Assembly (NCBI RefSeq): GCF_000376805.1
Contig: NZ_AQXT01000002.1
Span: 682,001 to 746,000, forward strand
Direction of reading: 5' to 3'
Origin: Henriciella marina DSM 19595
GTDB lineage: Bacteria; Pseudomonadota; Alphaproteobacteria; Caulobacterales; Hyphomonadaceae
DNA length: 64,000 nucleotides
Positions 13,440 to 19,527 of the stretch are shown here, one piece after another; position 1 is the first letter of the stretch; the number at the start of each line of letters is the position of its first letter. A model generated the notes under the pieces. It had not been told where the DNA came from, ran no database searches, and was given only the letters and a program-made list of their open reading frames with translations. Both the position numbers and the translations under genes were made by a program.

Positions 13440-14631
13440 TGGCACACCTCCTGAGGACGACCGCACGTTCACGCTGAACTTTGGGCCGCAGCACCCGGCC
13501 GCGCACGGCGTGCTGCGCATGATCATGGATCTCGATGGTGAGGTCGTTGACCGTATCGACAGCCATATCGGCCTGCTGCATCGCGGCACCGAGAAGCTGC
13601 TCGAATACAAGACCTACCTTCAGGGCCTGCCTTATTTCGATCGGCTCGACTATGTCGCGCCGATGAACCAGGAACATGCCTGGTGCCTGGCGATCGAGCG
13701 TCTGCTCGGTCTCGAAGTGCCGCGGCGGGCGAAGTTCATTCGCGTTCTCTATTCAGAGATGGGCCGGCTGCTGAGCCACCTCCTGAATATTGGCACCCAG
13801 ATCATGGATGTCGGCGCGCTGACACCGATTACATGGGCCTTTGAAGAGCGGGAAAAGTTGATGGGGTTCTATGAGCGGGCCTCGGGCTCGCGCATGCACT
13901 CTGCCTATTTCCGGCCTGGCGGCGTCCATCAGGATCTGCCTCAGGACCTGATCGATGACATCATGTTCTTCTGTGAGCAGTTCCCGGCGGCGCTCGCTCA
14001 GATCGAAGACCTCGTCACGGAGAACCGCATCTTCAAACAGCGCAATGTCGACATCGGCGTTGTCGATGAAAAGATGATCATGGAGTGGGGCTTTTCCGGC
14101 GTCATGGTGCGCGGCTCCGGCCTCGCCTGGGATCTTCGCCGCTCGCAGCCTTACGAGATCTATGACGAGATTCCGGGCGACGTCTTCAAGGTCGTCGTTG
14201 GCAATAATGGTGATAATTACGACCGCTATGTCTGCCGGATGGAAGAGATGCTGGTGTCAAATGACATCATGAAATGGTGCATCGAGAATATGCCCGAGGG
14301 CGAGGTTCTGCTGGCCGGGTCGAAAGTCTCGCCGCCGCGCCGGGGCGACATGAAGCGCTCAATGGAAGCGCTGATCCATCACTTCAAGCTCTACACCGAG
14401 GGTTTCCACGTGCCCGAAGGCGAAGTCTATGCCTGCGTCGAGGCGCCGAAGGGTGAGTTTGGTGTCTATCTGGTTGCCGACGGATCGAACCGTCCGTACC
14501 GCGCCAAGATCCGCGCGCCCGGCTTTCCGCACCTCGCGGCCATGGACCATCTGTGCAAGGGCCACATGCTGGCAGACGTGTCTGCCATTCTGGGTTCGCT
14601 CGATATCGTGTTTGGGGAGATCGACCGCTAA
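13432..14631 (+). CDS. nuoD: NADH-quinone oxidoreductase subunit D
   Basis: The 49-kDa-type subunit that forms the quinone-binding cavity with NuoB. The 399-residue sequence contains the N-terminal [14 protein letters not shown] loop with the quinone-head His, [11 protein letters not shown], and the C-terminal D-I-V-F-G-E-I-D-R typical of the family. Length is standard. Its TAA overlaps the nuoE ATG by one base. Confidence 0.98.
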
Positions 14632-15722
14632 TGGCTCTACGCCGTTTTGATATTGAGGCTGGAGGCGAAACGTTCGCTTTCAACGCCGAAACGGAGCCGA
14701 CGATTGCGTTCTGGATGGGTAAGTATCCAGAGGACAAGAAGCGCTCGGCTGTCATTCCGCTGCTCTGGCTGGCGCAGAAGGACAATGGCGGCTGGCTGTC
14801 CGAGCCAGCCATGCGGACGGTCGCTGACCGTCTGGAGATGCCGTATATCCGCGTCTATGAGGTCGCGACCTTCTATACGATGTTCCGGCTTCAGCCTGTC
14901 GGCAAGAACCACGTCCAGCTTTGCGGCACGACGCCGTGCATGCTGCGCGGGGCGAATGATCTCAAAAAGGTCTGCGAGAAGCGGATCGGCAAGAAGATGG
15001 CCGTCACCGATGATGGGCGTCTGTCGTGGGAAGAGGTCGAGTGTCTCGGCGCCTGCGTGAATGCGCCGATGGTGCAGATCAATGACTATTATTACGAAGA
15101 CCTGACGCCAGAGTCGCTGGACGAGATCCTCTCGCGGCTGGCAGGCGGAGTCGCGGTGCCACCTGGTAATTTCGTCGACCGGCTGAACAGTGCGCCTGTC
15201 GGCGGGGCGACGACGCTGAAGGAAAAAGACCTTTATGACGGCTCGCGCAATGGTGCGGGCGGTCTGCCGAACCTTCCGGAGGCGACGGATGGCGACGAGC
15301 CTGAGGCCGAAGCCAAGGGGGAACCTCCGCGCTACAAGCCAACGAATACCGACCGCGAAGAGCCATCCAAGAAGGCTGTCGAGGCGGCTGATGATGAGAT
15401 CAAGCCTGAAGGGGCGACGTCTTCGGAACCCAAGCGCGACGCGGCGCCGAAGGCTGATGATGGCGCGGAGCTTGAAGGCCAGCGCCCGGAAGCGGCTGAT
15501 GTCGAGGCCGAGGCGTCCGATGATCTGAAGAAAATCAAGGGCGTAGGGCCGAAAATTGAGAAACAGCTCAATGGGCTCGGCGTGCACACTTTCAGCCAGA
15601 TCGCTGCATGGACGCGCGACAATGTAAAATGGGTCGACGGGTATCTGTCGTTCCGTGGCCGTATCGACAGGGAAGCCTGGATCGAGCAGGCCAAGACACT
15701 TGCATCTGAGGACAAAAGCTAA
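14631..15722 (+). CDS. nuoE: NADH-quinone oxidoreductase subunit E with C-terminal helix-hairpin-helix extension
   Basis: The 24-kDa-type subunit with the [2Fe-2S] cluster N1a. Ligands C98, C103, C138 and C142 are in place within the first 175 residues. The protein is 363 residues, about twice the usual core. Residues 219-295 are an acidic, Ala/Glu/Lys-rich low-complexity linker. Residues 298-357 form a helix-hairpin-helix-like domain ([15 protein letters not shown]). Comparable extended NuoE proteins are known from rhizobia and relatives. What the extra domain does is not known to me. The ATG at 14631 follows GGGGAG in the end of nuoD. Confidence 0.96.
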
Positions 15723-17026
15723 TGCTGCAGGACAAGGATCGCATCTTTACCAATCTCTATGGCGCGCACTCGCCTGGTCTTGAAGAGGCCAGGAAGCGCG
15801 GTGCCTGGCATCTGACGCGTGAGATGCTCCAACAGACACCGGAATGGATCTGCGACCAGATCAAGGCGTCGGGCCTGCGTGGGCGCGGCGGGGCTGGCTT
15901 TCCTACGGGGCTCAAGTGGACCTTCATGCCCAAGGAAGTGCGGGAGCGCCCGCATTATCTGGTCGTCAACGCCGACGAGTCCGAGCCCGGCACGTGCAAG
16001 GACCGCGAGATCATGCGGCATGACCCGCACCTTCTGATCGAAGGCTGCATGATCGCCTCCTATGCGATGCGCGCGCATGCCTGCTACGTCTATCTGCGCG
16101 GCGAATATATTGCCGAGCGCGAGGCGCTGGAGAAAGCCGTCAAGGAAGCCTATGAGGCTGGCCTCATCGGCAAGAACAACAAGAATGGCTGGGATTTCGA
16201 TCTCTATGTCCATCATGGCGCAGGGGCCTATATCTGCGGCGAGGAAACCGCGCTGCTCGAAAGCCTCGAGGGCAAGAAGGGCCAGCCGCGCCTGAAGCCG
16301 CCATTCCCGGCCAATGCCGGTCTCTATGGCTGCCCGACGACCGTGAACAATGTCGAATCGATTGCCGTTGCGCCGACCATTCTGCGCCGCGGTGCCGAAT
16401 GGTTTGCAGGCTTTGGCCGCCCGAATAATACCGGTACCAAGCTATTCTGCATCTCTGGCCATGTGAACAAGCCGTGCAATGTCGAGGAAGAGATGTCGAT
16501 CACCTTCCGTGATCTCATCGAAACCCATTGCGGCGGTATTCGTGGCGGCTGGGAGAACCTCAAGGCCGTGATTCCTGGTGGCTCATCGGTGCCGATGGTG
16601 CCGGCCGAGCAGATCATGGATGCCTATATGGACTTCGACACGCTGCGGGACCTGCGCTCAGGGCTCGGGACGGCGGCTGTCATCGTGATGGACAAGTCGA
16701 CTGACCTCATTCAGGCGATCGCGCGCATCTCATACTTCTACAAGCATGAGAGCTGCGGCCAGTGTACGCCGTGCCGCGAAGGCACTGGCTGGATGTGGCG
16801 TGTGCTGGAACGGATGGCAAAGGGTCAGGCGGAGGTGTCGGATATCGACATGCTGCTGGACGTGGCTGGTCAGGTCGAAGGTCATACGATCTGCGCACTG
16901 GGCGATGCTGCGGCGTGGCCGGTCCAGGGTCTCATCCGTCACTTCCGCCACGAGATCGAAGACCGTATCTCCGAGTACCGGGCGCCGCGCACTGTCGTGC
17001 AGGGCGCAACCGTGGCCGCGGAGTAG
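15722..17026 (+). CDS. nuoF: NADH-quinone oxidoreductase subunit F (NADH- and FMN-binding)
   Basis: The 51-kDa-type subunit that oxidises NADH with FMN and cluster N3. The 434-residue protein has the glycine-rich [10 protein letters not shown] (54-63), the FMN-site N-A-D-E-S-E-P-G-T (83-91), and the [4Fe-4S] ligands C345, C348, C351 (E-S-C-G-Q-C-T-P-C) and C391. The ATG overlaps the last base of the nuoE TAA. After it comes the unrecognised membrane protein gene, not nuoG directly. Confidence 0.98.
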
Positions 17027-17042
17027 GGGGCAGCACCGACAG

Positions 17043-17423
17043 ATGACCATGCTCCGCAACATCCTCACCACCATCTGGTGCGCCGTGATCATCGGGACGA
17101 ATGTGTTCGCCCTGCTCGTGGTCGCGCAGACCTATGGCGGGGATATGCTGATGCTTGGTGCGCTGACTTTCCCGGTCGCGCAGATGATCGCAATGGTCGC
17201 GCTGGGTGTCGTCTCACTGGTCTCCACCAAGTATCTGTGGGCGATCCTTGCGGTTGCGGTCATCTCGCTCCTCATCAGCTTTGGTCACGAGATATTCGTG
17301 CAGCGGGTCTGGCGCCCGTCTGCGATGATGGGAAGCCTGATCGTGATCGTCCCGACCTATTTGCTTGCGCGCTGGAATTCGCTGTCGCGCGAGCCGAAAT
17401 TCAATCCCGTACAAGAGTTCTAA
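17043..17423 (+). CDS. Unrecognised four-helix membrane protein within the nuo operon
   Basis: A 126-residue protein that I cannot assign to a family. Hydrophobic segments lie at about 5-28, 37-60, 63-83 and 93-110, with a short soluble tail ending K-F-N-P-V-Q-E-F. It has no Cys pair or metal motif. The ATG at 17043 follows GGGGGCAGC after the nuoF stop; the next gene, nuoG, begins four bases after its stop. The tight spacing indicates co-expression with complex I. It is not one of the 14 core subunits, all of which are present elsewhere in the operon. It could be an assembly or accessory factor, or a passenger. Confidence 0.82.
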   Translation: MTMLRNILTTIWCAVIIGTNVFALLVVAQTYGGDMLMLGALTFPVAQMIAMVALGVVSLVSTKYLWAILAVAVISLLISFGHEIFVQRVWRPSAMMGSLIVIVPTYLLARWNSLSREPKFNPVQEF

Positions 17424-17427
17424 AGCG

Positions 17428-19527
17428 ATGGCTGACGACCTTTTCAAACTGAACATCGATGGCAAGGATATCGAGGTGCCCAAGCACTACACGCTGATGC
17501 AGGCGTGTGAGGAAGCTGGCGCTGAAATCCCGCGCTTCTGCTATCACGAGCGCCTGTCGGTTGCCGGTAACTGCCGTATGTGCCTGGTCCAGTGGAAAGG
17601 CGCGCCAAAGCCTATTGCGAGCTGCGCCCAGACCGTTGGCGATATGCGGTTGAACCCGGATGGCACGGCGCCGACCATCCTGACCTCTGGCGATTATGTC
17701 GAGAAGGCTCGCAATGGCGTCATGGAATTCCTGCTGATCAACCACCCGCTGGATTGCCCGATCTGCGACCAGGGCGGTGAGTGCGACCTGCAGGACCAGG
17801 CCATGGCCTATGGCCGGTCGGGCTCTCGCTATGCGCTGAACAAGCGCGCGGTCGAAGACAAGTATATGGGGCCGCTGGTCAAGACGCACATGACCCGCTG
17901 CATCCAGTGCACGCGTTGTGTGCGGTTCGCCGCAGAGGTTGCCGGTGTCGAAGAGCTGGGCATGATTTCGCGCGGCGAAGACGCTGAAATCACGACATAC
18001 CTCGAAGAATCGCTCTCGTCGGAGCTCTCCGGCAATGTCATCGATCTTTGCCCGGTCGGCGCGCTGACATCCAAGCCATACGCCTACAATGCGCGGCCAT
18101 GGGAGCTGCGCAAATCGGAATCGATTGACATCATGGACGCCATGGGCGCCGCGATCCGTGTGGATGCGAAGGGCGCAGGCGTGATGCGGATCATGCCAGT
18201 GGTCAATGAAGAGGTGAATGAAGAGTGGCTGTCAGACAAGTCGCGCTTCATCTGGGACGGGCTCGCCCGCCAGCGCCTCGACAAGCCTTATGTGCGCGAG
18301 AACGGCAAGCTGCGTCCCGCGAGCTGGCCGGAAGCGCTGCAGAAGACAGCGGATGCGCTGAAAGCCTCCAAGGAAAAGACAGGTTTTATTGCCGGTGACC
18401 TTGTTGAGGTCGAACAGGCCCGCGCCGCGCTCGATCTGGCACGTAGCCTTGAGGTTTCATCAACTGACTGCCGCCCTGAAGGCGCAAGCTATGGCGCTGA
18501 TGGCGTGCGAGAAAAGTACATCCTGAACCCGACATTCATGGGCGTCGAGGAAGCCGACGTGCTGCTTCTGATCGGGACCAATCCGCGCGTTGAAGCGGCC
18601 GTCTGGAACGCGCGCATCCGCAAGGCCTGGCTCTGGAATAACCTCCAGGTTGGCGTTGTCGGCGAGCCTGTCGATCTGACCTATGACTATGAGCATCTCG
18701 GCACTGGCCCAGGCGACCTCGAGGGGCTGCTGGACGGTGACAGTGACTTTGTGAAGGCCTTCAAGGACGCCAAGCGGCCAATGGTTATCGTCGGCGAGCA
18801 GGCGCTTGTCGGTGAGCATGGCGAGGATGTCCTGAAGGCGGCGCATCAGATTGCGCTCGATGCTGGCGGTATCAGCGAAGACTGGAGCGGCTTCGGCGTT
18901 CTTCACAATGCCGCGGGCCGTGTCGGCGCGCTCGATACGGGATTCTTGCCGGGTGAGAATGGCCTTGATACCAAGGCGATGCTCGAAGGCGGCGTCGATA
19001 CACTTGTCCTGCTCGGTGCAGATGAGCTTGATCTCAGCCGTCTTGGCGACACGACGGTGATCTATGTCGGCTCCCACGGGGATCGCGGCGCAGCGCGCGC
19101 GGACATTATCCTGCCGAGCGCAGCCTATACCGAAATGGAAGCGACCTATGTGAACACTGAGGGCCGCGTGCAGATGACCCGTAAGGCTGTCCAACCGAAG
19201 GGTGAGGCGCGTGAGGCCTGGGCGATCTTCCGGGCGCTTTCGGAAGTGCTGGGCGCGGCGCTGCCATATGATTCGGCCGGTCAGCTCCGCGAGCAGCTGC
19301 GTGAGCATAATCCAATATTCGCAGGTCTTGGCTTCGCGCCGGGCGAGGCGGCGCATGAGGCGCTGTCCAAGGCTCCCGAAAAGCCAAAAAGCCTTGCAGG
19401 CGCGCGTCCTTTTGAAGCGCCTTTCGAGGATTTCTATCTGTCCAACCCGATCGCTCGGGCATCAAAGACGATGGCGGAGTGCTCGCTCATGAAGCGTGGC
19501 CTTGAAACGCCGGTAGCAGCGGAGTAG
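17428..19527 (+). CDS. nuoG: NADH-quinone oxidoreductase subunit G
   Basis: The 75-kDa-type Fe-S subunit at the tip of the peripheral arm, 699 residues. The N-terminal ferredoxin-like domain has C38, C49, C52 and C66 for [2Fe-2S] N1b. Next come H-P-L-D-C-P-I-C-D-Q-G-G-E-C for N5 and R-C-I-Q-C-T-R-C-V-R-F with a later C-P-V-G-A-L for N4. A molybdopterin-oxidoreductase-like domain without cofactor makes up the rest. The ATG at 17428 is preferred, since the in-frame upstream part lies in the membrane-protein gene. Confidence 0.98.
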   Translation: MADDLFKLNIDGKDIEVPKHYTLMQACEEAGAEIPRFCYHERLSVAGNCRMCLVQWKGAPKPIASCAQTVGDMRLNPDGTAPTILTSGDYVEKARNGVMEFLLINHPLDCPICDQGGECDLQDQAMAYGRSGSRYALNKRAVEDKYMGPLVKTHMTRCIQCTRCVRFAAEVAGVEELGMISRGEDAEITTYLEESLSSELSGNVIDLCPVGALTSKPYAYNARPWELRKSESIDIMDAMGAAIRVDAKGAGVMRIMPVVNEEVNEEWLSDKSRFIWDGLARQRLDKPYVRENGKLRPASWPEALQKTADALKASKEKTGFIAGDLVEVEQARAALDLARSLEVSSTDCRPEGASYGADGVREKYILNPTFMGVEEADVLLLIGTNPRVEAAVWNARIRKAWLWNNLQVGVVGEPVDLTYDYEHLGTGPGDLEGLLDGDSDFVKAFKDAKRPMVIVGEQALVGEHGEDVLKAAHQIALDAGGISEDWSGFGVLHNAAGRVGALDTGFLPGENGLDTKAMLEGGVDTLVLLGADELDLSRLGDTTVIYVGSHGDRGAARADIILPSAAYTEMEATYVNTEGRVQMTRKAVQPKGEAREAWAIFRALSEVLGAALPYDSAGQLREQLREHNPIFAGLGFAPGEAAHEALSKAPEKPKSLAGARPFEAPFEDFYLSNPIARASKTMAECSLMKRGLETPVAAE

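Follow-up and report, generated by a model that had tools for sequence, protein, structure and literature searches.

A predicted membrane-protein gene bound to the nuoF-nuoG slot of an alphaproteobacterial complex I operon, with a tentative role in biogenesis of the complex

Accessory genes in the operons of bacterial complex I have long been listed as unidentified frames, and papers of the 1990s describe such reading frames in the nuo and nqo operons of Paracoccus and Rhodobacter. A gene of this kind lies in Henriciella marina DSM 19595, within a stretch of 64,000 nucleotides that is referred to here as the window. ORF X (positions 17043..17423, forward strand) consists of 126 codons followed by TAA and encodes a hydrophobic protein of 126 residues with four predicted helices. 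It is separated by 16 nt from the end of nuoF at 17026 (15722..17026, forward strand, Pfam Complex1_51K) and by 4 nt from the start of nuoG at 17428 (17428..19527, forward strand, Pfam Fer4_Nqo3, Molybdopterin and NADH_dhqG_C). These frame coordinates bear out the first-pass annotation, which had placed a hydrophobic frame of 126 codons between the two genes with gaps of 16 and 4 nt, and its statement that the window holds all 14 core subunits agrees with the Pfam matches, which name NuoA to NuoJ and NuoK to NuoN in canonical order. X matches no core Nuo model in Pfam (at E values up to 10 for X itself and up to 0.01 for 19 members of the alignment A2 described below), and whereas a core subunit is expected wherever the operon is, X occurs at 28 of 97 junctions of the bacterial family. 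The gene is thus an accessory reading frame of an alphaproteobacterial nuo operon: non-core, on the same strand, flanked by short gaps and lying between nuo genes. Like the frames of Paracoccus and Rhodobacter, it is a small extra gene between core genes; in contrast to them, it is confined to a single family among the genomes searched. Upstream of nuoF, NuoE (14628-15722) has a long acidic linker and a C-terminal stretch (10 protein letters not shown) that are common to relatives; its Pfam match is confined to residues 30-171, and the C-terminal stretch presumably resembles a helix-hairpin-helix.

The complex I of Paracoccus denitrificans, resolved at 2.3 Å, contains beyond its core only NDUFS4, NDUFS6, NDUFA12 and a methyltransferase, according to the accessible part of the article (PMC11522691). 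X would be like these subunits (NDUFS4, NDUFS6, NDUFA12 and the PIMT subunit) in being accessory to an alphaproteobacterial complex I, but their places in the structure are the hydrophilic domain and the heel, and none of them is described in that part of the text as a multi-helix membrane protein (PMC11522691). In a purification study, mass spectrometry failed to detect Nqo7 and Nqo11, which are small and hydrophobic, as stated in the accessible portion of that paper (PMC8115037), so that proteomics alone could miss X as well.

Conservation and selection established X as a gene. Searching 61 genomes with the single sequence returned 15 matches, which correspond to 14 of the 29 genomes of the genus (its own included) and one stray match (locus L015 in genome G058, E 5e-4) that was not counted, being another membrane protein located away from nuo. 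The orthologues in the 13 other genus genomes share 49-74% identity with X and occupy the same nuoF-nuoG slot. All 14 copies align over their full length, and their invariant residues include R5, W12, K63, L65, W66, PTYLLARWN and F120-N121-P122-V123; in the broader alignment A2, L65 is still invariant and W12 and W66 are nearly so. Synonymous changes per site exceeded non-synonymous changes in 10/10 pairs of relatives, taken from four groups (Fisher p from 6.2e-4 to 2.1e-20 over all ten), with a dN/dS of 0.06-0.42 in nine pairs and saturation in the tenth. In five of the ten pairs the values for nuoF and nuoG, computed on 1200-nt parts, were 0.005-0.035 and 0.010-0.051, which places X at about 7 to 38 times the nuoF value. 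Over the genus pairs listed, dN/dS of X ranged from 0.10 to 0.57. A chance ORF is ruled out by this conservation and purifying selection. X is a real gene, selected as a protein but loosely, and it evolves far faster than nuoF and nuoG.

How far the protein reaches was addressed with profiles. Profile A2 identified X in 28 of 105 family genomes, with one match per genome, always behind nuoF in the nuoF-nuoG gap. Because 10 of its rows were picked by position, the tally of 28 is partly built in, and genomes G114 and G064 serve as independent checks. In G064, a member of another genus, the ORF in the slot was the sole match to A1, the profile of the 14 genus sequences alone (E 2.4e-4, residues 2-126), and in G114 profile A2 located X 3 nt behind nuoF (E 9.3e-5). 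A further independent check came from a tblastn match in L090/L208, which belong to the same genome as the A1 match. Of the 14 diverged members searched with A1 by itself, 13 went undetected at E values up to 10, and one stray match lay away from the slot, in G087 (E 0.52). Comparison of the sequence groups by hhalign yielded 97% for A-G, 89% for A-D and 98.6% for D-E over 119-126 columns, while weak pairs taken singly reached 8% (A-B), 23% (A-C), 13% (A-E) and 1.4% (A-F). When columns were shuffled so that the hydrophobic pattern was preserved, groups B, C, D, E, F, G and J exceeded 60/60 shuffles against A, some by small margins, and B, C, E, F, G and J exceeded 60/60 against D. In the hhalign runs, controls with reversed sequences scored no higher than 10.3 when the groups differed, and as high as 19.5 when a group was set against its own reverse. 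At the N-terminus, 23 columns of E and 15 of J match A; with D, E has a firm match and J one over 66 columns. Group F (L081, G068) is the least secure member, since its match to A and D is confined to 14 columns at the C-terminal end (INPAEEF), where the candidate nuoG site discussed below also lies. Profile comparison joins eight sequence groups, four of them most securely. Three further candidates, H1 (L071), H2 (L073) and the order-level group I (L114, L121), failed to beat all shuffles and were not accepted as members; their raw hhalign scores included 24 for H1 against E and 23 for H2 against I. The 119 genomes of the order that lie outside the family gave no match, nor did the other 189 genomes of a class sample of 190, where the window's own genome was the sole match; in some genomes of both scans a share of the first-look candidates (for example 28 or 22 of them) was scored, so that the absence is not exhaustive. 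X belongs to a fast-diverging protein family of roughly 125-150 residues that is found in one bacterial family and in the nuoF-nuoG gap only, in the genomes searched.

Searches for known families and folds left this protein family on its own. No Pfam or NCBIfam model matched X at its cut-off. The model of the MAG0110 family membrane protein (MAG0110_fam, NF045951) gave a weak profile match of 29.6 bits (E 4e-7), and 4 of the 19 A2 members matched it too; membership was rejected because the score is far below the curated cut-off of 98 bits. This match, together with those of single A2 members (of 19) to PRA1, Archaeal_AmoA and SMP_LBD in Pfam (E 0.0016-0.0066) and to SecE and Ycf4 in NCBIfam (E 0.0021-0.0063), is taken as membrane composition. 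The PDB sequence search produced three matches with E values of 0.18-0.67, Foldseek with the X model gave a best E of 1.8 and none at 0.001 or below, and the best VIA-align hit (Z 9.9, 3.3 Å over 102 residues) falls in the range given for generic helix bundles. The protein had been called unrecognised on first inspection, and it stays so, as the family search gave no convincing match to an unrelated family. No description of X was found in the open PMC literature. The family of X is coherent, selected, slot-bound and without a recognised homologue.

AlphaFold predicted helices at residues 2-36, 39-60, 64-87 and 92-114 for X of the window (mean pLDDT 82.2, pTM 0.69) and likewise four helices for the distant member at L059 (85.3 and 0.76). 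From hydrophobicity, they are predicted to be membrane helices. The earlier description as a four-helix membrane protein therefore stands for the helices as predicted by AlphaFold, and its membrane part remains a reading of hydrophobicity. The codons for K63-Y-L-W66 (17229..17240, forward strand) specify the short loop between helices 2 and 3. A weakly supported orientation would place three features on the cytoplasmic side: the arginine near the N-terminus, the [KR]-x-LW loop and the C-terminal tail, which is basic. About 1.9 K+R in the loop that connects helices 3 and 4 count against a clear orientation.

The distribution of X is patchy. The 97 family junctions divide into 28 with X, 61 with no insert over 100 nt and 8 with something else; missing from 69 of them, X is dispensable. 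Of the 29 genus genomes, 27 yielded a nuoG, and the 13 of these without a close X comprise ten with gaps of 8-19 nt, two with a diverged hydrophobic ORF (L034, L044) and one with another ORF (L037). Absence from close relatives, which the first-pass annotation had set against a link with complex I, holds in part: X is present in relatives, but in 14/29 of the genus by single-sequence search and 28/105 of the family by profile. On a quick tree of nuoF and nuoG (101 rows, many weak forks), its presence needs at least nine changes, five on the starred branches alone, and the tree does not separate gains from losses. We read the history as old presence followed by repeated loss, because no source copy was found elsewhere.

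The gap that houses X also houses other genes. Among 46 loci of the order, 19 nuoF-nuoG intervals are longer than 150 nt, 14 are shorter and 13 have no nuoF within reach, and 33 of 40 class loci have gaps of at most 84 nt. The occupants scanned include TM2-domain and YCII proteins in the order and DUF3291 and DUF5333 proteins in the class; two of the eight family loci with a non-X insert (L100, L200) showed no ORF that exceeds the listing limit. DUF5333 (PF17267) is like X in that one member, at class locus L176, sits in the nuoF-nuoG gap, but it is soluble-looking by eye, and it was absent from the matches of X (E up to 10) and of the 19 members (E up to 0.01). Side findings in the same region were a lysine-rich protein in the gap of two order genomes (L130, L134), whose C-terminal half we take to resemble HU/IHF, and a set of same-order ORFs directly behind nuoF (L114, L121, L206) that start VR(T/S)(F/L)LTYVLA, with a similar one at L127; a relation of those at L114 and L121 to X was not supported in the shuffle test. 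In G114 (L207) the gap contains X, then a DUF3291-like gene (by likeness to L150), a short 5' fragment of nuoG, more sequence and the intact nuoG, an arrangement that resembles an insertion in which the start of nuoG was duplicated. Since unrelated genes occupy the gap in family, order and class, position alone is weak evidence of function, and this observation nourishes the strongest rival explanation, namely that X is a passenger with a membrane function unrelated to complex I that uses a strong constitutive operon and a gap tolerant of small inserts. Inserts other than X at 8/97 family loci, the unrelated occupants elsewhere, and the fast evolution and frequent absence of X all speak for it. 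Against this, X was not found outside the nuoF-nuoG gap in the genomes searched, whereas TM2, YCII and DUF3291 are families of wide distribution, and eight diverged groups of X keep the same slot. The passenger explanation is a close rival of the reading preferred below.

The junction with nuoG provides a second line of evidence. nuoG starts 3-4 nt past the stop of X in the 14 genus copies, stop and start overlap as TGATG in 3 of the 28 X genomes (L049, L050, L090), and the X stop adjoins or overlaps the nuoG start in 27/28, G114 being the exception. The best Shine-Dalgarno pairing upstream of nuoG had a median energy of -2.4 in the 28 X genomes (among them G114, where nuoG is not adjacent to X) against -6.1 at 65 junctions without X (61 of the family and 4 order outgroups). 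Two X genomes, L049 and L050, depart from this pattern in having a strong site for nuoG (-11.6); shifting the nuoG start by one codon left the energies of L049, L050 and L090 unchanged. At 11 of the 14 X-less junctions listed (of 65), a GCGGAG belonging to the nuoF tail precedes the nuoG start; the same GCGGAG is still found in front of X in 6 of the 14 genus copies, including the window, where the last codons of nuoF carry it. In the window, the last codons of X contain AAGAG (17413..17417, forward strand), which may serve nuoG as a weak ribosome-binding site. The last six invariant degenerate codons of X diverge less than the other 29 (mean 0.11 versus 0.36), and random codon sets were as low in 1424 of 100000 draws (p about 0.014, for related sequences and uncorrected), so that the conserved C-terminal motif may be partly explained by RNA and not by protein only. 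Translational coupling of X and nuoG is likely in view of the weak candidate site in the last X codons and the stop/start overlap in 3/28; because related genomes are not independent, the junction statistics are support for coupling, not proof.

The same data could be read as a cis-acting element, in which NuoG output depends chiefly on an open frame that terminates at the nuoG start and the protein is secondary; X would then be kept open because a strong nuoG site was replaced by a weak one inside it. The weak candidate site, the overlaps in 3/28 and the low divergence of the terminal codons fit such an element, but the codon test is the uncorrected one on related sequences just given, and a dN/dS well below 1 together with invariant residues far from the C-terminus (W12, K63 and W66 in the genus; W12, L65 and W66, invariant or nearly so, in A2) shows selection on the protein, which makes the cis-acting element improbable. 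Slightly more improbable is that X is a supernumerary subunit present in stoichiometric amount within the membrane arm of complex I or next to it, in favour of which stand the fixed place in the operon and the four predicted helices, and against which stand the absence of X at 69/97 relative junctions with recognisable nuoF and nuoG and of any such subunit from the Paracoccus structure in the accessible text (PMC11522691).

That X is locked to its slot and under purifying selection speaks for a functional gene linked to the operon, and repeated absence with fast evolution argues against an essential or structural subunit. The first-pass annotation had left the choice between assembly factor, supernumerary subunit and passenger; the functional, operon-tied gene has gained ground, the structural subunit is disfavoured and the passenger stays strong. 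The preferred reading, to which we assign a probability of about 0.42, is that X may be an accessory membrane protein that serves complex I biogenesis in this lineage, a role suggested by sequence evidence and slightly favoured over the passenger. Ribosomes finishing X would start nuoG, X and NuoG would be made together, and X would act at the membrane while the peripheral arm (NuoE, NuoF and NuoG) is assembled or stabilised. It would be helpful but dispensable, which would account for its rapid divergence and for the many genomes that lack it. Of the steps in this reading, the biogenesis role is the least secure; those concerning gene, family and coupling are much safer.

A separate gene, Y, encodes a conserved protein between nuoE and nuoF at ten loci (L075, L085, L086, L087, L091, L095, L099, L207, L208, L210), the window not being one of them. 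These ten were read out of 17 loci with a nuoE-nuoF gap over 100 nt, among 70 measured, and in 10/10 Y ends next to nuoF. It is mostly 64-77 residues long, with listed frames of 87 (L091) and 133 (L099). By eye it has two hydrophobic segments, and the residues C, G, T, W, G, G, P and I are invariant. A Y profile matched in 30/105 family genomes, at positions partly checked, and gave no match in the window genome; two members scanned had no Pfam match, and comparison of Y with X found no relation between them on this evidence.

In conclusion, X emerges as a coherent, selected and slot-bound family that is probably coupled to nuoG, and since relatives with and without X exist within one genus, its effect on complex I is directly testable by deletion. 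A bolder and unlikely proposal is that X and the unrelated small hydrophobic protein between nuoE and nuoF of sister lineages might both belong to a set of dedicated membrane chaperones or anchors for the NADH-oxidising module, a set whose members are replaced quickly in evolution and are produced in step with NuoG through translational coupling. If true, bacterial complex I would have, in particular lineages, an assembly system of its own that is embedded in the membrane.
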